From contig NZ_CP128846.1 of the NCBI RefSeq assembly GCF_030388665.1, positions 2,108,001 to 2,172,000 on the forward strand: a DNA stretch of 64,000 nucleotides. The letters run 5' to 3'. The notes beneath the pieces were generated by a model. That model saw nothing but the letters and a program-made list of their open reading frames with translations. It was not told the origin of the DNA and ran no database searches. Positions within the stretch are counted from its first letter, which is position 1. Every line of letters starts with the position of its first letter. This stretch comes from Streptomyces flavofungini. Its GTDB lineage: Bacteria; Actinomycetota; Actinomycetes; Streptomycetales; Streptomycetaceae. Of the stretch, positions 20,930-33,173 are shown in pieces. The translations under genes and the position numbers were made by a program.

Positions 20930-21115
20930 ATGGCGGACGACGACGAGTACTGCGCCCCTGCCCCCACGACCGGCCCCCACCCGGCGGCCGGTCCCCCGTT
21001 CGCGGAGTGCGTGCTGTGCCGGGAGCCCACGGAGTACCCGGAGTCCCACCGTGGCATCACGCTGTGCCCGGTCTGCGAGTGGCAGGAGGCTCAGCGGACG
21101 GCTTGCTCGGGCTGA
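20930..21115 (+). CDS. Small zinc-ribbon protein
   Basis: 61 residues with two CxxC knuckles (CVLCREP and CPVCEW) joined by a 20-residue beta-hairpin-like segment, as in one-finger zinc ribbons. No other domain is present. TAGGCT lies 6 nt before the ATG, and there is no Shine-Dalgarno sequence, which suggests a leaderless mRNA. Its 3' end overlaps the end of the convergent permease remnant by 25 bp. Confidence 0.65.
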   Translation: MADDDEYCAPAPTTGPHPAAGPPFAECVLCREPTEYPESHRGITLCPVCEWQEAQRTACSG

Positions 21116-22079: not shown

Positions 22080-22859
22080 GTGACCAGCAACACGCCCCGC
22101 CCGGACGACTCCCCGCAATCGCAGGCTTCCCAGGACACCGGGGCCGCCGAGGGTGCCGCCCCCGACAGCCCCTTCCGTGTCGCGCGCACACCGCGCGACG
22201 AGGCCCCGCAGTTCGTGCTGCCCCTGGTGGCCCGGATCGAGCGGTCCGCGGCCCCGGCCCGTACGGACGCGCTGGAGACGGCGGCCCGCGCGGTCCTGAC
22301 GATCCTCAGCGACGAGCGGGCGCTCGGCGAGGGAGAGTGGGCGCGGGCGATGCGGGACTGGCAGGACGCCCGCATCCGCAAGGTGGTGCGCAGGGCGCGC
22401 GGCGCGGAGTGGCGGCGGGCCGAGGCGCTGGACGGCATCACGGTGACGGGCAAGTCGGCCGAGGTGCGGGTGTATCCGCCGGTGCCGCTCGACGGCTGGC
22501 CCAAGGACCTGGCCCGGCTCCAGGTCTCCGGCACGGACCTGGACGACCCGGAGCCCCCGCGGGACCCCGACCCGGCCACGCCCGTCCTCTGGCTGAACCC
22601 CGACATCACCATGTCGGCGGGCAAGGCGATGGCCCAGGCGGGCCACGGCGCCCAGCTGGCCTGGTGGGACCTCTCCGCCGGGGACCGCACGGCCTGGCGC
22701 GAGGCCGGCTTCCCCCTGTCCGTCCGCACCGCCCCCGCGGCCCGTTGGCCCGAACTGACCACGAGCGGCCTCCCCGTGGTCCGCGACGCGGGCTTCACGG
22801 AGATCGCCCCCGGCTCCTGCACGGTGGTGGCCGACCACCCGGCGCTGCGGCGCGCCTGA
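22080..22859 (+). CDS. Peptidyl-tRNA hydrolase Pth2-like protein
   Basis: 259 residues from GTG 22080. The C-terminal ~110 residues contain LNPDITMSAGKAMAQAGHGAQLAW, the glycine/lysine-rich active-site region of the Pth2 (PF01981) fold, followed by VVRDAGFTEIAPGSCTVVA. The N-terminal half (VLPLVARIERSAAP, RDWQDARIRKVVRRARG) is an actinobacterial extension. Hydrolysis of peptidyl-tRNA is inferred; this Pth2-like type coexists with ordinary Pth in Streptomyces. CAGACT lies 6 nt before the start, and no good ribosome-binding site is visible. Confidence 0.75.
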   Translation: MTSNTPRPDDSPQSQASQDTGAAEGAAPDSPFRVARTPRDEAPQFVLPLVARIERSAAPARTDALETAARAVLTILSDERALGEGEWARAMRDWQDARIRKVVRRARGAEWRRAEALDGITVTGKSAEVRVYPPVPLDGWPKDLARLQVSGTDLDDPEPPRDPDPATPVLWLNPDITMSAGKAMAQAGHGAQLAWWDLSAGDRTAWREAGFPLSVRTAPAARWPELTTSGLPVVRDAGFTEIAPGSCTVVADHPALRRA

Positions 22860-24376: not shown

Positions 24377-25162
24377 TTGCAGCGCATCAGGCACATGGGG
24401 CGTATCAACGGCACGGCCCTGATCATCGCGGCCCTCGTCGTCACCGTGGGGGCCCTCGCCTTCCCGGTATGGTCCTACGCCGACCGCTCGGGCACGGGCG
24501 AGGCGAACCTCAACGCCGGGAGCGTGTCGACGCGTTGGGGGCCGCTGTCCGCCACCGACCGGGACTTCCTCGTGAAGGTGCGCCTCGCCGGACTCTGGGA
24601 GATACCCGCCGGACAGCAGGCCGTGGAACGCGCGCCGAGCAAGGCCGTCAAGGAGGCGGGCGACCATCTGATCGTCGGCCACACCGACCTCGACCAGCGG
24701 GTGCGGGGTGTCGCCTCACAGCTGAGCGTCGAGCTGCCGAACCAGCCCAACGCCCAGCAGCAGGGCTGGCTACGGGAGTTGACCGACGCGAGCGGCGAGG
24801 ACTACCAGCGCAAGTTCGCCAACCTGCTGCGCGTCTCGCACGGCAAGGTCTTCGCCCTCATCGCCCAGGTCCGGGACACCACCCGCAACTCCCTCGTGCG
24901 CCAGCTCGCCTCCGACGCCAACCAGACCGTCCTCGACCACATCACGATGCTCGAGGGCACCGGCTACGTCGACTTCGACGCCATCGCGAACGACACCGCG
25001 GGCAAGTCCACCGCGAGCCCCACCGGCCCCCCGCCGCCCGACGGCGACACTCCCCCGCAGCCCGCCCCCGCGAGCCCCACCGGCGACGTCTCCGGCACCT
25101 CGCGGCCCTCCCCCGGCCCTCCGGGCACCGTCAACACCGATCGGCCCGAACCTCAAATGTAG
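24377..25162 (+). CDS. DUF4142 membrane-anchored protein (paralogue 1)
   Basis: 261 residues if TTG 24377 is used (GGGAGG 4 nt upstream); ATG 24395 is the alternative. One N-terminal helix (TALIIAALVVTVGALAFPVW) anchors or exports it. The DUF4142 four-helix region runs from DRDFLVKVRLAGLWEIPAGQ to LDHITMLEGTGYVDFD, with paired histidines (GDHLIVGHTDLD). A Pro/Ser/Thr-rich tail of ~55 residues follows. Closely similar in order and motifs to the gene at 26879; the DUF692 gene lies between the two. Confidence 0.8.
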   Translation: MQRIRHMGRINGTALIIAALVVTVGALAFPVWSYADRSGTGEANLNAGSVSTRWGPLSATDRDFLVKVRLAGLWEIPAGQQAVERAPSKAVKEAGDHLIVGHTDLDQRVRGVASQLSVELPNQPNAQQQGWLRELTDASGEDYQRKFANLLRVSHGKVFALIAQVRDTTRNSLVRQLASDANQTVLDHITMLEGTGYVDFDAIANDTAGKSTASPTGPPPPDGDTPPQPAPASPTGDVSGTSRPSPGPPGTVNTDRPEPQM

Positions 25163-25264
25163 CTCTGAAACCCCTGATCAGAAGGTTCACCCCGGTCTGG
25201 CGCGGTCATGACTACGGCTACGTGAACGTCCGGGGAGGACCAGCGGCAAGGAGGGGGAACGACG

Positions 25265-26776
25265 ATGACCGCACGGGGGACGACAGCGGTACGGGAGACA
25301 GCAGCGGCACAGGAGACAGCGGTAACCGCACGAGGAACGACGACCCAACTGGGGACCGGCATCGGATGGCGACCGGAGATCGCCGACGCCGTCGAGCGCA
25401 TGCCCGGCATCGACTGGGTCGAGGCCGTCGCCGAGAACGTGTGCCCGGGCCACCTGCCCGACTCGCTGCTGCGGCTGCGCGAGCGCGGCGTGGCCGTCGT
25501 GCCGCACGGCGTCTCGCTCGGCCTCGGCGGCGCGGAGCGCCCGGACGAGGCCCGGCTCACCGCGCTCGCGGAGCGCGCGCAGGCACTCGGCTCACCGCTC
25601 GTCACCGAGCACATCGCCTTCGTACGGGCCGGTGGCGCCCTCACCGCGTCGCCGCACCTCGAAGCGGGACACCTGCTGCCCGTGCCGCGCACCCGCGACG
25701 CGCTCGCCGTGCTGTGCGAGAACGTCCGCATCGCCCAGGACGCGCTGCCCGTACCGCTCGCCGTCGAGAACATCGCCGCCCTCATCTCCTGGCCCGGCGA
25801 GGAGATGACGGAGGGGCAGTTCCTGTACGAGCTGGTGGAGCGGACCGGCGTCCGGCTGCTCATCGACGTCGCCAACCTGCACACCAACCACGTCAACCGG
25901 GGCGAGGACCCGGCCCGCGCCCTGGACGAGCTGCCGGTGGAGGCCATCGCGTACGTCCACGTGGCGGGCGGCTTCGAGCGGGACGGCGTCTGGCACGACA
26001 GCCACGCCCACCCCGTGCCCCGGCCCGTCCTCGACATCCTCGCCGACCTCGCCGCGCGCACCCGGCCGCCGGGGGTGCTCCTGGAGCGGGACGAGAACTT
26101 CCCCGAGGGCGACGAGCTGGAGCGGGAGCTGGCGGCGATCCGGGACACGGTGGCGACGGCGACGACCACGTCCACGGCGTCCACGGCGTCGGCGGCGCTC
26201 CCGGAGGCGTTTCCGGCGGCGGCCCCAGCTCCGGACCGCGCGCCGGACCCGGCCGCCGGACCCGCGCCCACCACGCCCGCGCCCGAGCCGGCCGCCACCC
26301 CCGAAGCCCGCCAGCGCGTCGCCCTCGCCCAGGCCGCCCTGCTCTCCGCCCTCGTCGCCGGCACCCCCGCGCCGGAGGGCTTCGACGGGGCACGCCTGAG
26401 GGTGCAGAGCCGGGCGCTGGCCGCCAAGCGGGCCGACGTGGTGGCGAAGGTCGCCCCCGAACTCCCGTGGATCGTCGGCGAGACGTACCGCGCGGACTTC
26501 CTCGGCTACGCCCGCACCCGCCCCATGACGGGCGGCTACCGCCAGGACGCGCTGGACTTCGCCGAGCACCTGCTGCTCGCCGGGCGGCCCGAGGACGCGG
26601 CGGCGCGGGGCGAGCTGACGGCCTGGTGGCTGGAGCGCTCGGGCCCGAAGCCGCTCGACGGGCGCCCCCTCACCCGCTGGCTGCGCACCCGGGCGGCCCG
26701 GATCGCGCTGCGCAAGGCGCGGCGGCGCACCCCCGGCCACGCAGGCGTGGACGCCGACCCCGCCCCGGCGACGTAG
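25265..26776 (+). CDS. DUF692 (multinuclear iron oxygenase family) protein with C-terminal helical domain
   Basis: 503 residues; ATG with GGAGGGGG upstream. The TIM-barrel DUF692 domain covers ~30-295. Likely iron ligands are His81 (PHGVSLGLG), His116 (TEHIAF), Glu168 (AVENIAAL), Asp201 and His206 ([12 protein letters not shown]), His232 (YVHVAGG), the HDSHAHP loop (~244-250) and Glu274 (LLERDENFP). MbnB and TglH of this family rebuild cysteine in peptides. A Thr/Ala/Pro linker (~297-345) joins a C-terminal helical domain (~350-490; [20 protein letters not shown]) that I associate with SCO6045-type proteins. The peptide substrate is unknown. Confidence 0.85.
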
Positions 26777-26878
26777 CCAACTGCCCCATTTCGTACAGCC
26801 GTTGACGTACTCCGTCCGGTATGCGGGACGCCTCCCCCGCGCCGCGCACTAGCGTGCGGTGGCGCGACAGGAGGCGTC

Positions 26879-27634
26879 ATGCGTTCCCGAATCATCAGCG
26901 GCACCGGTCTCGTCCTCACGGGGCTCGTGGCCACGCTGGCCGCGCTGGTCTATCCCGTGTGGTCGTACGAGGACCGCTCGGGCACCGGCCTCGACGCGCT
27001 CACCTCGCAGACCGTGTCGACCGACTACGGACCGCTGTCCGCGCTCGACCGGGACTTCATCACCAAGGTGCGGCTCGCGGGCCTGTGGGAGCTGCCCGCG
27101 GGCCAGCAGGCCGGGGAGCGCGGCACCACCCGGGCCGTGCACGTCGCGGGCAAGCACCTGGTCGAGGGGCACACGTTCCTGGACGCGCGGGTGCGCGAGG
27201 TGGCGGCGGCGCTGCGGCTCGAACTGCCCAGCCAGCCCAGCGCCCAGCAGCGGCGCTGGCTCGCGGAGCTGAGCGCGGAGCGCGGCACGGCGTACGACGT
27301 GAAGTTCGCGAACATCCTGCGGCGCGCGCACGGCACGGTCTTCTCGCTGGTGGCGGAGGTCCGCGCCACCACCCGCAACTCCCAGGTGCGCGCACTCGCC
27401 GACGACGCGAACACCACGGTCCTCGACCACATCAAGGTCCTGGAGGGGACGGGCCTCGTCGACTTCGACGGCCTGGCCCGCGACGCCGCCACGTCCACGA
27501 CCCCGCCACCGGACCGCTCCCCCGCGCCCCCCGGCCCCCAGGACTCCCCGCCCCCCGCGGCACCGGTGTCCCCGACTCCCACGTACTCCCTGCCCCCCGC
27601 CGTCTCACGGCCCGCGCCCGGACTGCGCGACTGA
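26879..27634 (+). CDS. DUF4142 membrane-anchored protein (paralogue 2)
   Basis: 251 residues; AGGAGG 5-6 nt before ATG. An N-terminal helix (TGLVLTGLVATLAALVYPVW) precedes the DUF4142 domain (DRDFITKVRLAGLWELPAGQ to LDHIKVLEGTGLVDFDG) and a Pro-rich tail. It shares most conserved positions with the 24377 protein, so this is a local duplication. A TAGCGT promoter box at 26850-26855 fits a short leader carrying the ribosome-binding site. Confidence 0.82.
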   Translation: MRSRIISGTGLVLTGLVATLAALVYPVWSYEDRSGTGLDALTSQTVSTDYGPLSALDRDFITKVRLAGLWELPAGQQAGERGTTRAVHVAGKHLVEGHTFLDARVREVAAALRLELPSQPSAQQRRWLAELSAERGTAYDVKFANILRRAHGTVFSLVAEVRATTRNSQVRALADDANTTVLDHIKVLEGTGLVDFDGLARDAATSTTPPPDRSPAPPGPQDSPPPAAPVSPTPTYSLPPAVSRPAPGLRD

Positions 27635-27739
27635 GGCAGGACGGTGGGGCCGGACCGGCGGGACAGCCAGTGCGGCGGGGGCGTCCACATCGTGGAATAC
27701 CGGTAGCGGCGTCACAGCTCCTTCACATAGAAATCCGGC

Positions 27740-28510
27740 ATGTTCTGGGTCCCGCTGCTGCTCCTCGCCTGTGCTCTCGCCGCGCTGTCCTGCGGCCGAC
27801 TCTGCGTGGCGGCCGTGCGGGCCGCGGCCAGTGAGCCGCGCGGGGCGCACGAGGGACGGCGTCTGACGCTGTACGAGGCGGCGTTCCTGTCGGGCGGGCC
27901 CGGCCGGGTCGTCGACGTGGCACTGCTCTCGATGGCGCGGGGGCGGCGGCTCCTGCTCGCGCACACGGGATGGGCGACCGTGGTGGATCCGGTGCCCGGG
28001 GACGACCTGGAGCGGTCGGTGCTCGGGGCGATAGGTCCGGCCGGGCAGTCGCGGATCGCGCCGGTGCGCACGGCCGCGGCGGCCGGTGACGGGGTGCGGG
28101 CGCTCGCGGACCGGCTGGTCGCGGCGGGACTCGCGGTGCCGGACGGGATGTGGTCGGGGATCGCGGGCGCGGCGCGGCAGGTGCGGGCGGCCGCGGTCGC
28201 CGTCGTGGTCCTCGGGGCGTGCGCGACGCTGCTTCCCGCCGAGGGTCGGGAGGGGGAGCTGCCGGTCGCGGTCTGGTTCGCGCTGCCGTTCTTCCTCACC
28301 GTGAGCTGCCTGGCCATCGCCCGCTTCGAGGTGCCGACCACGCGCTGGGCGTCCCCGGCGGGGCGGCGGCTGCTCGGCGCGCTGCCCTCGCGGGACGACC
28401 TGACGTCGGTGGCCGTGCGGGGCCTGCGCGCCCTGGAGGACCCGGCGCTGCGCGCCGCGCTCTCCCACCGGGACCCGAACCTCGACGGGTACCGCGACGC
28501 CCGGCCGTAG
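27740..28510 (+). CDS. TIGR04222-like membrane protein
   Basis: 256 residues. One helix at the N-terminus (FWVPLLLLACALAAL), a soluble domain (~40-150; LTLYEAAFLSGGPGRVVDVALLSMARG, GWATVVDPVPGDD), then two adjacent helices (~155-205). LYEAAFLSGGPGRVV is the part I recognise from TIGR04222 proteins, which often accompany DUF692 genes. The Gly/Cys-rich tail seen in many relatives is absent. TAGAAA lies 6 nt before the ATG. Confidence 0.65.
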   Translation: MFWVPLLLLACALAALSCGRLCVAAVRAAASEPRGAHEGRRLTLYEAAFLSGGPGRVVDVALLSMARGRRLLLAHTGWATVVDPVPGDDLERSVLGAIGPAGQSRIAPVRTAAAAGDGVRALADRLVAAGLAVPDGMWSGIAGAARQVRAAAVAVVVLGACATLLPAEGREGELPVAVWFALPFFLTVSCLAIARFEVPTTRWASPAGRRLLGALPSRDDLTSVAVRGLRALEDPALRAALSHRDPNLDGYRDARP

Positions 28511-28672
28511 GGCTGCGCGCGGCCGGTTCGAGGGGCCATTGGGGCGCGACTCGCGACGCCCGCGGGCCGGTGCTGGACTTTGCCGCCCTTCGAACTAAGT
28601 ATCCCTTTTGTTGTGATTTTGCGATTTACGCGATCACTTGGGCCCGCGCCGCGAAAGGGACACAGAACAGCG

Positions 28673-30316
28673 ATGAGAGCACCAGCAACCGCCGCCGCCC
28701 GGTACAGAGCCGTCAGAGCCGTCGGCACCATCGGCTCCCTCGCCCTGACCGCCCTCGCCGCGGCCCCCGCGAGCGCCGCCCCCCTCTCCGGCGCCTTGGC
28801 CACCCCCTCCTCCGAGACCCTCGGCACCGCCCTCGCCGCCCAGCGCGCCCAGATCGCCGGCATCGACTTCGGCCCCTGCCCGCGGGTGGAGAACCTGCCG
28901 CCGTCCGTGGAGTGCGGCACGGTCGCCGTCCCCCTCGACTACGCCCACCCCGACGGCAAGCAGATCCGGCTCACCGTCAGCCGCGTCGAGGCCACCGGGA
29001 AGTCGGGCCGGGCCGTGGTGTCGCGGCAGGGCGCGCTCGTCTTCAACCCGGGCGGCCCGGGCGCGTCCGGGATGTACTTCCCGATGGTCGGCCCGATGCC
29101 GGAGTGGCGGCGCATCGCGGCGGCGTACGACCTCGTCGGCTACGCCCCGCGCGGGGTGGGCCGCTCCGCGCCGCTGTCCTGCCAGGACCCCGAGCAGTTC
29201 ACCAAGGCGCCCACCAACTCGCCGACGCACCCCGACGCCTCGTACAAGGCGGAGCGCATCGCGCGGGCGAAGGCCTACGCACGCGGCTGCGCCCGGCACG
29301 CGGGCCCGGACCTGCGGCACTACACCACCCTCAACAACGCCCGGGACCTGGACGTCCTCCGCGCCGCGCTCGGCGAGCGGAAGCTGACGTTCATGGGCGC
29401 CTCGTACGGCACCTACATCGGCTCCGTCTACGCGACGCTGTTCCCCGGGCACGTGCGCCGCATGGTCTTCGACTCGGCGGTCAACCCGTCCCCGGACCAG
29501 ATCTGGTACGCCAACAACCTGGACCAGTCCTTCGCCTTCGAGCGACGCTGGGCGGACTTCCGCACCTGGGTCGCCAAGCACCACAAGACGTACCGCCTGG
29601 GCACCACGCCCGAGGAGGTGCAGCGCTCCTACGAGACCGTCCGCGCCGAGCTGACGCACAAGCCCGCGGGCGGCAAGGTCGGCTCCTCGCAGCTGCGGGC
29701 GGCGTTCCTGCGGGCCGCGTACTACGACGACTACTGGCCGATGCGGGCGACGGCCCTCTCACAGTATCTGAAGGGCAACCCGCAGCCGCTGATCCAGCAG
29801 GCCGCGCCGCATCCGGCGGCGGCCGCCGAGGACGAGAACGGCAACGCCGTCTACACGGCCGTCGAGTGCAACGACGCCGCCTGGCCCACCGACTTCCCCA
29901 CCTGGGACCGCGACAACTCCGCCCTCGCGCGCATCGCCCCGTTCGAGACCTGGGACAACGCCTGGATGAACCTGCCGTGCGCCTACTGGCCCGCGCCGCG
30001 CCAGCAGCCCCTGGACGTGCGCACCGCCCCGGGCGCGCTGCCCCCGACCCTGATCCTGGCCGCCGAGCGGGACGCGGCGACGCCGTACGAGGGCGCTCTC
30101 GAACTGCACCACCGGCTCGCGGGTTCGGTCCTCGTGACCGAGAAGGACGCGGGCACGCACGGCATCGCGGGCGGCCCGAACGCCTGCGTCAACGGCCACA
30201 CGGAGGCGTATCTCCTGGAGGGCGAGCTCCCGGTGCGGCGCGCGTCGTGCGCGCCGCACCCGGAACCGAAGCCGCTGTCGACGGGACGGGCGGCGGGTCT
30301 TCCCAAGCCGCTCTAG
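28673..30316 (+). CDS. Secreted alpha/beta hydrolase, tripeptidyl-aminopeptidase (SlpD/Tap) type
   Basis: 547 residues starting MRAPATAAARYR (GAAAGGGA ~10 nt upstream). The Sec signal is cleaved near ALAAAPASAAP. Nucleophile Ser is in FMGASYGTYIGSVYA. LVFNPGGPGASG is the oxyanion segment, the Asp is in LAAERDAATPYEGA, and the His is in DAGTHGIAGG. The C-terminal TAP-like domain is present. Members trim N-terminal tripeptides from secreted proteins or peptides. An unusually AT-rich patch (28592-28635) just upstream is probably the promoter. Confidence 0.9.
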   Translation: MRAPATAAARYRAVRAVGTIGSLALTALAAAPASAAPLSGALATPSSETLGTALAAQRAQIAGIDFGPCPRVENLPPSVECGTVAVPLDYAHPDGKQIRLTVSRVEATGKSGRAVVSRQGALVFNPGGPGASGMYFPMVGPMPEWRRIAAAYDLVGYAPRGVGRSAPLSCQDPEQFTKAPTNSPTHPDASYKAERIARAKAYARGCARHAGPDLRHYTTLNNARDLDVLRAALGERKLTFMGASYGTYIGSVYATLFPGHVRRMVFDSAVNPSPDQIWYANNLDQSFAFERRWADFRTWVAKHHKTYRLGTTPEEVQRSYETVRAELTHKPAGGKVGSSQLRAAFLRAAYYDDYWPMRATALSQYLKGNPQPLIQQAAPHPAAAAEDENGNAVYTAVECNDAAWPTDFPTWDRDNSALARIAPFETWDNAWMNLPCAYWPAPRQQPLDVRTAPGALPPTLILAAERDAATPYEGALELHHRLAGSVLVTEKDAGTHGIAGGPNACVNGHTEAYLLEGELPVRRASCAPHPEPKPLSTGRAAGLPKPL

Positions 30317-30876: not shown

Positions 30877-31596
30877 TCAGGCGAGGCCCGCCACGAGGTC
30901 CGCCACGGACTTGCGGCGGCCGGTGAAGAACGGGACCTCCTCGCGGACGTGCATGCGGGCCTCGGAGGCGCGCAGGTGCCGCATGAGGTCGACGATGCGG
31001 TACAGCTCGTCGGCCTCGAAGGCCAGCAGCCACTCGTAGTCGCCGAGGGAGAACGAGGCGACCGTGTTGGCGCGCACGTCGGGGAAGCCGCGGGCCATCT
31101 TGCCGTGGTCGGCGAGCATGCGGCGGCGGTCCTCGTCGGGCAGCAGGTACCAGTCGTAGGAGCGCACGAAGGGGTACACCGAGACGTAGTCGCGGGGCGT
31201 CTCGTCGGCGAGGAACGCCGGGATGTGCGACTTGTTGAACTCGGCGGGGCGGTGCAGCGCCATGTTCGACCAGACCGGCTCCAGGGCGCGGCCGAGCTTG
31301 GTGCGCCGGAAGAGGTTGTACGCCTCCTGGAGCTCGTCGGCGGTCTCCGCGTGCCACCAGATCATGACGTCGGCGTCGGCGCGCAGGCCGGACACGTCGT
31401 AGGTGCCGCGGACGGTGATGTCACGGGCCGCGAGCTTGTCGAACAGCTCCTGGACCTCGTCGGCGTACCCGAGGCGGCTCTCGGGCAGGACGTCGCGCAG
31501 CTTGAAGACGGACCACAGGGTGTAGCGGATGACCTCGTTGAGGTCCTTGGCCTTCTTGCCGGCGTTCGGGATCTTGGCGGGGGCGTCGTCACTCAT
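30877..31596 (-). CDS. hemQ: Coproheme decarboxylase HemQ (chlorite-dismutase family)
   Basis: 239 residues from ATG 31596. It oxidatively decarboxylates coproheme to heme b, the last step of the coproporphyrin-dependent pathway of Gram-positives. [31 protein letters not shown], the proximal-His segment [18 protein letters not shown], and [17 protein letters not shown] with [19 protein letters not shown] are family signatures. It lies 86 bp downstream of hemY on the same strand, so they probably form one operon. Confidence 0.95.
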
Positions 31597-31682
31597 GCGG
31601 CCATTCTCCCGCGCCGCCGCGCAGGCTCCGCACCGGGTTCGCGGTGAGCTCGCGCACGCCCGCCCGTCGCCCACCACCACCC

Positions 31683-33173
31683 TCAACCGAAGCGCTGCGC
31701 GCTGTCCCTCTTGCCTGCGACATCCCCCGTCTTGCCGCCGACATCCCCCGTCAGCCGGTCCACCGCCGCGTTGGCGCTGGCGATGCAGGCGGGGATGCCC
31801 ACTCCGTCGTACGCGGCCCCGCAGACCGCGAGGCCCGGCATCCGCCCCACGTGCTCGCGGACGCGGGCCACGCGCGCGTGGTGGCCCACGGGGTACTGCG
31901 GCAGGCCGCTGTCCCAGCGGGTGACGGCCGAGGCGACGGGCGCCGCGTCGAGGCCGGTGGCGGCGCGCAGATCCCCCCGCGACACGTCGACCAGCTCGTC
32001 GTCCGGGCGGCCCAGGTCCTTCTCGTCGCCGTACCGCCCCACGGACGTGCGCAGCACGAACAGCTCCGGGTCCTGGTCCGCGATCCACCCCCACTTCTGG
32101 CTCGCGAACGTCGACGCCTTGATGGTCCGCCCGTCCACGGGCGGCACCAGGAACCCGCTCCCCTCGGGCAGCGCGCCCACGTCGGCCCTGCGGTAGGCGA
32201 GGGTGATCAGCGCCATGGAGGCGTACTCGACGGCGCGCAGCTCGGCGGCGGCGCCGGGGACGTCGTGCTCCAGGAGACGGGCGGCGTGCGGGGCGGGCAC
32301 GGCGAGGACGACGGCGTCGGCCTCCAGGTCCCAGTCGTCGACGTACACCTCCCAGCCGTCCTCGACCCGGCGCAGCCCGTGGACGGCGCTCTTCAGGAGG
32401 ATCTCGCCGCCCCGCGCCCGCACCGACTCCGCGACGGCGAGCGGCAGTCGGCCGACGCCGCCGTCGATGCCCATGAAGACGGGGCCCTGCTGCTGGTTCC
32501 CGGCGGCGCGGGCCTGGAGGTCGCGGACGCCCTCGGTGAGGGAGGTGTGGGTGCGGGCGGCCTCGAAGAGCTGCGGGACGGCGGAGCGCATCGAGATGCG
32601 GTACGCGTCCCCGGCGTACACCCCGCCGAGCAGGGGCTCCACCAGGCGGTCCACGACCTCGCGGCCGACCCGGCGGGCGACGTACTCCCCGACCGCGACG
32701 TCGTCACCGACCTCGGTGGGCGGCAGTTCGCGGTCCCGCCCGATACGGCGCAGGCCCTCGTCGGAGAGCACCCCGGCGACGGCGGACGCGTCGCCGGGCA
32801 CGCCCATGACGTGCCCCTTGGGCATGGGCCGCAGCGCGCCGCGGGTCCAGATCGCGGCGCTCGCCGTCGCCGGTGCCTGAAGCCGGTCGCCGAGGCCCAC
32901 CTCGCGGGCCAGACCGACCGCCTCCGGCCTGCGGGCCAGCATGGACTCGGCGCCGAGGTCGACGTGTACGCCCGCGATCTCGCCCGCGCGCAGCTTCCCG
33001 CCGAGCCGGTCGGAGGCCTCGAGGACGGTGACGCGCGCTCCGGCGTCGAGGAGTCGGTGCGCGGCGGCGAGACCCGCGATGCCGCCACCGATGACGACGA
33101 CGTGGCCGAGGCCGCCCGGGGGGCCGTCGGGGGCGGAGGGGTGCTGGCTCGTCCGTGTGTCCGCTGCGCGCAT
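31683..33173 (-). CDS. hemY: Coproporphyrinogen/protoporphyrinogen oxidase HemY
   Basis: 496 residues. [21 protein letters not shown] (~25-45) is the FAD-binding Rossmann motif, followed by [35 protein letters not shown]-like tail and [22 protein letters not shown] (C-terminal FAD contact) are typical of oxygen-dependent HemY. It acts on coproporphyrinogen III in actinobacteria, feeding ferrochelatase and HemQ. Same strand and order as hemQ. Confidence 0.94.

Follow-up and report, generated by a model that had tools for sequence, protein, structure and literature searches.

The closest described relatives of the locus analysed here are gene clusters, mostly from Actinomycetota, in which a multinuclear iron oxygenase (MNIO, DUF692 family) adjoins a TIGR04222 membrane protein and is accompanied by a partner called PME-type 2; the accessible part of that study describes the pairing, proposes the Cys-rich TIGR04222 tail as the substrate and mentions some TIGR04222 proteins without C-terminal Cys (Antoine et al. 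2025, PMC12452194). The same fold and all nine iron ligands recur in TglHI (PDB 8hci, 8hi7, 8hi8), which makes 3-thiaglutamate but divides the work on a peptide Cys between two proteins, according to the available text of PMC10880893. The bufferin maturases BufB and HvfB work with BufC (DUF2063-RRE), that is, as an enzyme with a DUF2063-type partner, and the locus described here likewise pairs an enzyme with a putative partner. To our knowledge, TglHI operates without a TIGR04222 protein. We examined a 64,000-nt stretch of Streptomyces flavofungini (RefSeq assembly GCF_030388665.1, contig NZ_CP128846.1, positions 2,108,001 to 2,172,000; the whole stretch is called the window), which encodes an MNIO between two DUF4142 proteins and upstream of a TIGR04222 protein. 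This locus differs from the clusters of PMC12452194 in that the partner appears fused to the enzyme, only a tail-less TIGR04222 paralogue is present and DUF4142 genes flank the MNIO; the term DUF4142 does not occur in the accessible main text of that study. With moderate confidence, we favour the explanation that a one-chain enzyme has outlived its presumed substrate, the Cys-tailed paralogue TIGR04222a, and now acts on another protein. The MNIO–TIGR04222 pairing is already published; new are the probable fused partner, the split into TIGR04222a and the tail-less TIGR04222b, and the absence of TIGR04222a with a retained enzyme. We found no report in the open-licence literature of the paralogue split, of a missing tail copy with a kept enzyme, of a fused partner or of the DUF4142 link.

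The open reading frame (ORF) list and profile searches of the window place all four locus genes on the + strand. Their arrangement is far above chance, and matches above the profile cut-offs confirm the gene set and order that a first-pass annotation had read from the letters alone. The features are as follows:

24377..25162, + strand: DUF4142 protein A (PF13628, E 1.3e-20, 74.5 bits against a cut-off of 27); the start codon is TTG 24377 or ATG 24395
25265..26776, + strand: MNIO (DUF692), 503 aa, with a C-terminal extension (PF05114, E 8.9e-78, 261.6 bits against a cut-off of 25)
25355..26149, + strand: catalytic TIM barrel of the MNIO, residues 31-295, with nine TglH-type iron ligands
26297..26776, + strand: C-terminal helical domain of the MNIO, about residues 345-503, a putative fused partner (PME-type 2)
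26777..26878, no strand: gap of 102 bp, the site of TIGR04222a in the related loci L147/L200, L071, L178 and L225
26879..27634, + strand: DUF4142 protein B (PF13628, E 1.1e-18, 68.3 bits against a cut-off of 27)
27740..28510, + strand: TIGR04222b, 256 aa, tail-less (TIGR04222, near_uncomplex, E 3.2e-40, 138.2 bits against a cut-off of 43), with conserved C18 (27791), C22 (27803) and C190 (28307)
28580..30316, + strand: alpha/beta hydrolase, TAP-like (PF08386, E 1.4e-27)

The whole genome (9.36 Mb) contains one MNIO, one TIGR04222 and four DUF4142 genes, two of these four in the locus. No short Cys-rich gene was seen within the locus, which bears out the earlier remark that no Cys-rich precursor is visible there, and a promoter and terminator scan returned 0 promoters and 0 terminators.

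The comparison covers 162 informative Streptomyces loci, comprising 100 (window included), taken from the MNIO places of 150 Streptomyces genomes searched, and 62 others. Left out of this table were L093, whose contig ends after the MNIO, the loci L187, L196, L200 and L214 of the second group, which duplicate genomes of the first, and 14 of the 80 loci originally in the second group with <4.2 kb from MNIO start to locus end, including L177, which has the tail; a second MNIO tree drops six further long or short rows. The window's set of upstream DUF4142, MNIO, downstream DUF4142 and TIGR04222b occurs in 24 of the 162 loci, of which 20 lack TIGR04222a, and the alpha/beta hydrolase is the usual downstream neighbour (129/162).

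The DUF692 protein is predicted to be an active-type MNIO. Its nearest solved relatives, by sequence and by predicted fold (fold ranks 1-9), are TglH, the H. somnus DUF692 protein 3bww and MbnB; TglH is the best match (sequence E 8.4e-24; fold ranks 1 and 2). The model has a mean pLDDT of 74, with the barrel mostly at >=80 in ten-residue blocks. The nine iron ligands of TglH, taken from the available text of PMC10880893 (H71, H107, E151, D184, N187, H216, D229, H231 and E258), correspond to H81, H116, E168, D201, N204, H232, D245, H247 and E274 in the window, where H81 and H116 were placed by motif and the remaining seven by alignment to TglH. All nine are thus kept, as the first-pass annotation had expected of the metal ligands, and homologues do not lose them: the set is complete in 161 of 162 Streptomyces loci, the single exception being L141 (G085), where the MNIO gene is broken into pieces in different frames although TIGR04222a is present. 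Among NCBIfam models the top relatives are MNIO_BufB (178.7 bits) and HvfB (144.7 bits), but the protein scores under the curated cut-offs for BufB (NF050167, 310 bits), HvfB (360 bits), ApyH, ChrH and MbnB, and therefore no specific chemistry can be assigned. A genome-wide search for DUF2063 (PF09836, PME-type 1) found nothing at E 0.001, while the positive control genome Caulobacter vibrioides matches, and no signal-peptide Cys precursor gene, a feature of bufferin-type systems, was found beside the MNIO. A few Streptomyces have, away from this locus, a second MNIO type that scores far better against PF05114 (L007, L008 and L009 in G099, G090 and G031; E 1e-106 to 9e-111).

Streptomyces TIGR04222 proteins fall into two paralogues, TIGR04222a with a Cys tail and TIGR04222b without, and a tree of 122 TIGR04222 rows shows two changes of the Cys-tail label. 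TIGR04222a begins at or just behind the MNIO stop codon and carries a Ser/Gly tail, which in most copies measures about 30-120 residues and contains 3-11 Cys (most often 7-10; >=3 were required for the call); a WCA motif opens most of the 40 tails viewed. On that tree the sole TIGR04222 of the window falls among the tail-less proteins and is separated from those with a Cys tail. Its domain ends at residue 232 of 256 and the last 24 residues contain no Cys, so that the Cys-rich Ser/Gly C-terminal tail proposed as the MNIO-substrate feature is missing from it. TIGR04222b has cysteines of its own: C18 is Cys in 108, C22 in 111 and C190 in 113 of 116 copies, while TIGR04222a cores mostly lack C18 and C22; their alignment, which has 63 rows and takes in the TIGR04222b of the window, shows Cys in the C190 column in 30. 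C22 is kept in 81/81 copies from loci without TIGR04222a, compared with 25/30 from loci with it; C18 and C190 are each missing in some tail-less loci. In the genomes G047 and G105, which have no MNIO match yet keep TIGR04222b, hydrolase, HemQ and protoporphyrinogen oxidase together, C22 is replaced by Val. This C22 pattern is suggestive as a hint to a substrate and comes from very few independent events. An omega of 1.07 for TIGR04222b in loci with TIGR04222a was not used, being taken as an artefact of both paralogues sharing one cluster.

TIGR04222a is present in 59 and absent from 103 of the 162 Streptomyces loci, and the enzyme is kept in either case. All nine ligands are complete in 103/103 loci without TIGR04222a, in 58/59 with it and in 22/22 with neither paralogue in the locus. 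The MNIO is under similar purifying selection with and without TIGR04222a: median NG86 omega values, computed over the catalytic part and some linker and read relative to one another, are 0.259 without TIGR04222a, 0.298 with it and 0.286 where no TIGR04222 is nearby. The MNIO tree implies 5 switches between presence and absence, >=2 of them forced by starred branches; grouping of 100 tail-less rows as a single clade is not rejected (AU p 0.29). At genome level, MNIO was found in 141 of the 150 Streptomyces genomes, TIGR04222 in at least 131, both in at least 128, TIGR04222 alone in 3 and neither in 6, leaving 9/150 without an MNIO match. Among the candidates scored, no TIGR04222 match came up in 13 of the 141 MNIO genomes; as <=17 candidates were scored per genome, some TIGR04222 genes may be missed. 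A DNA pattern for Cys-tail repeats, tried on locus sequences, gave either too much noise or too little sensitivity for genome-wide use.

In the window lineage, TIGR04222a was most likely lost. The species closest to that of the window (S. alboflavus, S. aurantiacus, S. lasiicapitis and S. aureoverticillatus) also lack TIGR04222a, and the 102-bp gap holds no TIGR04222 match, the match in TIGR04222b being the only one genome-wide. Two observations lead us to infer loss: some loci have six genes, including both paralogues, and outside the genus the MNIO stands beside a Cys-tailed TIGR04222. The order DUF4142, MNIO, TIGR04222a, DUF4142, TIGR04222b, hydrolase occurs in three strains that branch close to the root of the window's group: Streptomyces sp. 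WAC 01529 (L200), S. alfalfae and S. himalayensis. S. coelicolor is most likely in the same situation as the window, because only SCO6043 and SCO6044 remain between the protoporphyrinogen oxidase SCO6041 and chlorite dismutase SCO6042 (as named in the accessible portion of PMC5069765) and SCO6045, which we took as the MNIO orthologue from its domain name. SCO6045 is induced 3.01-fold by 0.15 mM H2O2 in wild-type S. coelicolor, where 28 genes pass the threshold; no gene passes it in the mutant lacking HbpS-SenS-SenR, and genes of sulfate-to-cysteine biosynthesis are co-induced, as reported in the available text of PMC4991794.

The extra C-terminal domain that the first-pass annotation had assigned to the DUF692 protein is real, and it is most likely a fused MNIO partner of PME-type 2. 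According to the accessible part of PMC12452194, such partners resemble DUF2063 proteins without having the DUF2063 signature, differ in length, are rich in helices in their N-terminal domains and are encoded after the MNIO. We read the domain in this way because gene order and helices fit this description: it is encoded directly after the MNIO, either as its own gene or fused, and the whole-protein model shows helices in the C-terminal region. It forms an ORF of its own after the MNIO in 9 of 100 Streptomyces loci. Among 20 MNIO loci from other actinomycetes, 14 encode it separately (including L250, at 23 bits only) and 4 within the MNIO ORF, and it was undetected in 2. Homologues bear the precomputed family PF26136, and some are named 'SCO6045-like C-terminal domain-containing'. 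A search of the domain sequence against solved structures gave no match to TglI, NGO1945 or 3dee. A fused partner would explain why the protein carries the extra domain and offers a one-chain enzyme that can be expressed and tested.

A search of 246 class-level genomes found an MNIO in 31 from outside Streptomyces, with TIGR04222 at <=5 kb in 22/31 and not in 9/31 by hand count. We analysed 20 of these 22 co-localized loci, which were thus chosen because TIGR04222 is nearby. TIGR04222 lies upstream of the MNIO in 16/20 and carries >=3 tail Cys in 14/20, while DUF4142 and the hydrolase were found in 0/20, with profiles that were built from Streptomyces and may miss distant relatives. The order Cys-tailed TIGR04222, MNIO, partner thus looks ancestral, and both the fusion and the association with DUF4142 seem to have arisen later. 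The first-pass annotation had suggested a possible conserved envelope-located modification system made up of all four families and had looked to co-occurrence beyond close relatives for its support. With the full set in only 24 of 162 Streptomyces loci and DUF4142 in none of the 20 others, that suggestion is not supported as worded: beyond close relatives TIGR04222 does co-occur with the MNIO, but DUF4142 does not. What holds is the wider association of MNIO, TIGR04222 and partner.

DUF4142 is best read as a putative extracytoplasmic, ferritin-like metal-binding protein. Protein A consists of an N-terminal hydrophobic segment, a ferritin-like helical domain and a Pro/Ser/Thr-rich tail; it shares 57% identity with protein B, and neither contains Cys. 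Eight residues (E70, H92, H97, D101, H150, D182, H183 and E188, first-row numbering) are invariant in 33 aligned copies. The protein A model, with 146 of 256 residues at pLDDT >=90, resembles CopM, the S. coelicolor DUF305 protein and YciF at Foldseek E-values of about 4e-3 to 4e-2, none of them <=0.001. CopM, some entries of which are metal-bound, reaches a TM-score by target of 0.75-0.82, but CopM and DUF305 share only 10-14% identity with protein A. The protein A sequence matched among solved structures only three designed TIM barrels (E 5.6e-4 to 3.3e-3), with no single stretch passing alone. Since these neighbours are read as metal-binding, a role of the locus in coping with metal or oxidative stress at the cell envelope is probable. 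A downstream DUF4142 is present in 69/103 tail-less loci compared with 7/59 loci with TIGR04222a, but independent pairs give no support to this association (2 on starred branches, median p 1; first 101 rows). The idea that DUF4142 stands in for the missing tail protein was rejected: an upstream DUF4142 also occurs in 22/59 loci with the tail, and the window copies are Cys-free. Further tandem DUF4142 genes lie upstream of the MNIO at L137, L145, L158, L206, L235 and L245, with no Pro-rich tail in the aligned copies from L206 and L245.

The mechanism that we propose starts from an ancestral actinomycete system in which the MNIO would most likely have oxidized cysteines in the Ser/Gly/Cys tail of TIGR04222, yielding an exposed metal-binding or redox-active tail, while the partner domain, fused C-terminally in Streptomyces, would deliver the substrate. 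In the window lineage, TIGR04222a would have been lost and the fused enzyme kept under selection, acting now on another protein. Chances are about even that this present substrate is encoded outside the locus; a somewhat doubtful candidate is TIGR04222b with its own conserved cysteines, and the Cys-free DUF4142 proteins are a less likely one still. The idea in the first-pass annotation that the enzyme may act on a protein and not on a short peptide is supported. The most testable point is the survival of the enzyme beyond its presumed substrate: the 103 tail-less loci among the 162 amount to a natural experiment, in which whatever the MNIO modifies cannot be that tail. A bolder form of the proposal, which we hold only tentatively, is that this widespread Streptomyces MNIO, fused to its own substrate-delivery domain, was deprived of the Cys-tail substrate at an early point in the history of a large clade. 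It would since have taken on a new task, modifying by itself one or several ordinary proteins of the cell, in connection with metal or oxidative stress. If true, the enzyme would be a general protein-modifying oxygenase outside any cluster of the kind known for ribosomally synthesized and post-translationally modified peptides (RiPPs), and not a RiPP maturase.

Several points weigh against the proposed history. The Cys tail as substrate is so far a published proposal only, and a Cys-rich substrate may lie elsewhere in the genome. The trees cannot separate loss from gain, the basal branch of the tail-less clade has moderate support, and the TIGR04222 copies from outside Streptomyces are not assignable to either paralogue by the profiles used. 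One locus scored as lacking TIGR04222a (L142) has a copy with a 35-residue tail and 1 Cys, and NG86 estimates in GC-rich genes allow a relative comparison only. The partner reading leans mainly on gene order and the likeness to DUF2063 is weak: 7 of 12 domain members match DUF2063 (best E 2.5e-4), the window's own copy does not, and the match is seen in 0/10 domain homologues from other actinomycetes (18 found).

A competing view, unlikely although it overlaps with the proposal above, takes TIGR04222b as the true substrate in all Streptomyces, modified at the membrane-proximal C18, C22 and C190, with the tail of TIGR04222a as a second substrate. The near-constancy of these cysteines (108, 111 and 113 of 116 copies), the 81/81 retention of C22 in tail-less loci and its change to Val in the two MNIO-lacking genomes speak in its favour. 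What argues against it is that 22 of the 103 tail-less loci have no TIGR04222b and 13 of 141 MNIO genomes no TIGR04222 match, with the ligands kept where examined, and that the losses of C22 reduce to a very small number of events, as five of the copies concerned are related and two others are near-identical. The version of the first-pass annotation, in which the four genes would form one envelope modification system, here taken with the DUF4142 proteins as the substrates of the MNIO, draws on the flanking position of DUF4142 in the window, on the more frequent downstream copy where TIGR04222a is absent and on the invariant His, Asp and Glu residues, which suggest a metal site. Some MNIOs act on residues other than Cys. 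We nevertheless regard this version as quite improbable, considering that the window copies are Cys-free, that DUF4142 is missing from all 20 loci outside Streptomyces, that independent pairs are unsupportive and that 31 of 103 tail-less loci have no DUF4142 either up- or downstream. We give the least credence to the idea that the enzyme is a relic that persists by inertia and is functionless in the window lineage. Neighbours do turn over on the tree (28 changes for TIGR04222b, 19 for the downstream DUF4142 and 19 for the hydrolase), and nine of 150 genomes have no MNIO match; but the complete ligand set in every tail-less MNIO, a median omega no higher than in loci with the tail and the stress induction of the presumed S. 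coelicolor orthologue SCO6045 (available text of PMC4991794) speak for a working enzyme.

The remaining alternative concerns the wider neighbourhood of the MNIO, which comprises:

20930..21115, + strand: 61-aa six-Cys protein with C-terminal ..RTACSG, a weak alternative substrate candidate 4.1 kb upstream of the MNIO
22101-22859, + strand: PTH2 peptidyl-tRNA hydrolase (PF01981, E 1.7e-8)
30877-33173, - strand, just downstream: chlorite dismutase family (HemQ-type) gene and protoporphyrinogen-oxidase-like amine oxidoreductase

The 61-aa protein, which has no Pfam or NCBIfam match over the cut-off, or another short Cys protein of the same chromosomal region is very unlikely to be the substrate. 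In its favour, the 61-aa protein occurs (E <1e-9) in 104/141 MNIO genomes and 0/9 MNIO-lacking genomes (Fisher p 1.3e-5, not corrected for kinship), after two chance-level matches had been dropped (in G089, which lacks the MNIO, and G098, which has it; E 0.004 and 0.005); it is present in 98/162 loci and its C-terminal RTACSG is nearly invariant. Its constant neighbour, however, is a polysaccharide deacetylase, which lies at <=300 bp in 78/82 cases, while the distance to the MNIO has a median of 2.5 kb and extends up to 42 kb in G096, with both genes on the same strand in 62/91. Its presence is independent of TIGR04222a (p 0.49), and the motif CVLC..CPVC resembles a structural zinc ribbon. The first-pass annotation had advised looking for short Cys-rich ORFs that co-occur with the locus: among gene families present in >=12 of 162 loci, no short, Cys-bearing family adjoins the MNIO, though a rarer or shorter ORF could be missed. 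This survey used our own GC3-based gene caller with ORFs >=30 aa, which recovered the MNIO itself in 151/162 loci. At L072, L073 and L231 the 61-aa protein appears to be interrupted in frame by nearly the same insert, GVPPLERxREWG, which may be a small repeated element.

The PTH2 cluster is found in 89/162 loci; the accessible part of PMC12452194 lists a peptidyl-tRNA hydrolase (PF01195) beside MNIO–TIGR04222 pairs. Downstream, the HemQ-type cluster is present in 102/162 and the protoporphyrinogen-oxidase-like cluster in 141/162 loci. A link of the MNIO to heme was considered and rejected: HemQ and protoporphyrinogen oxidase also stand together in the MNIO-lacking genomes G047 and G105, and their proximity is therefore read as synteny.

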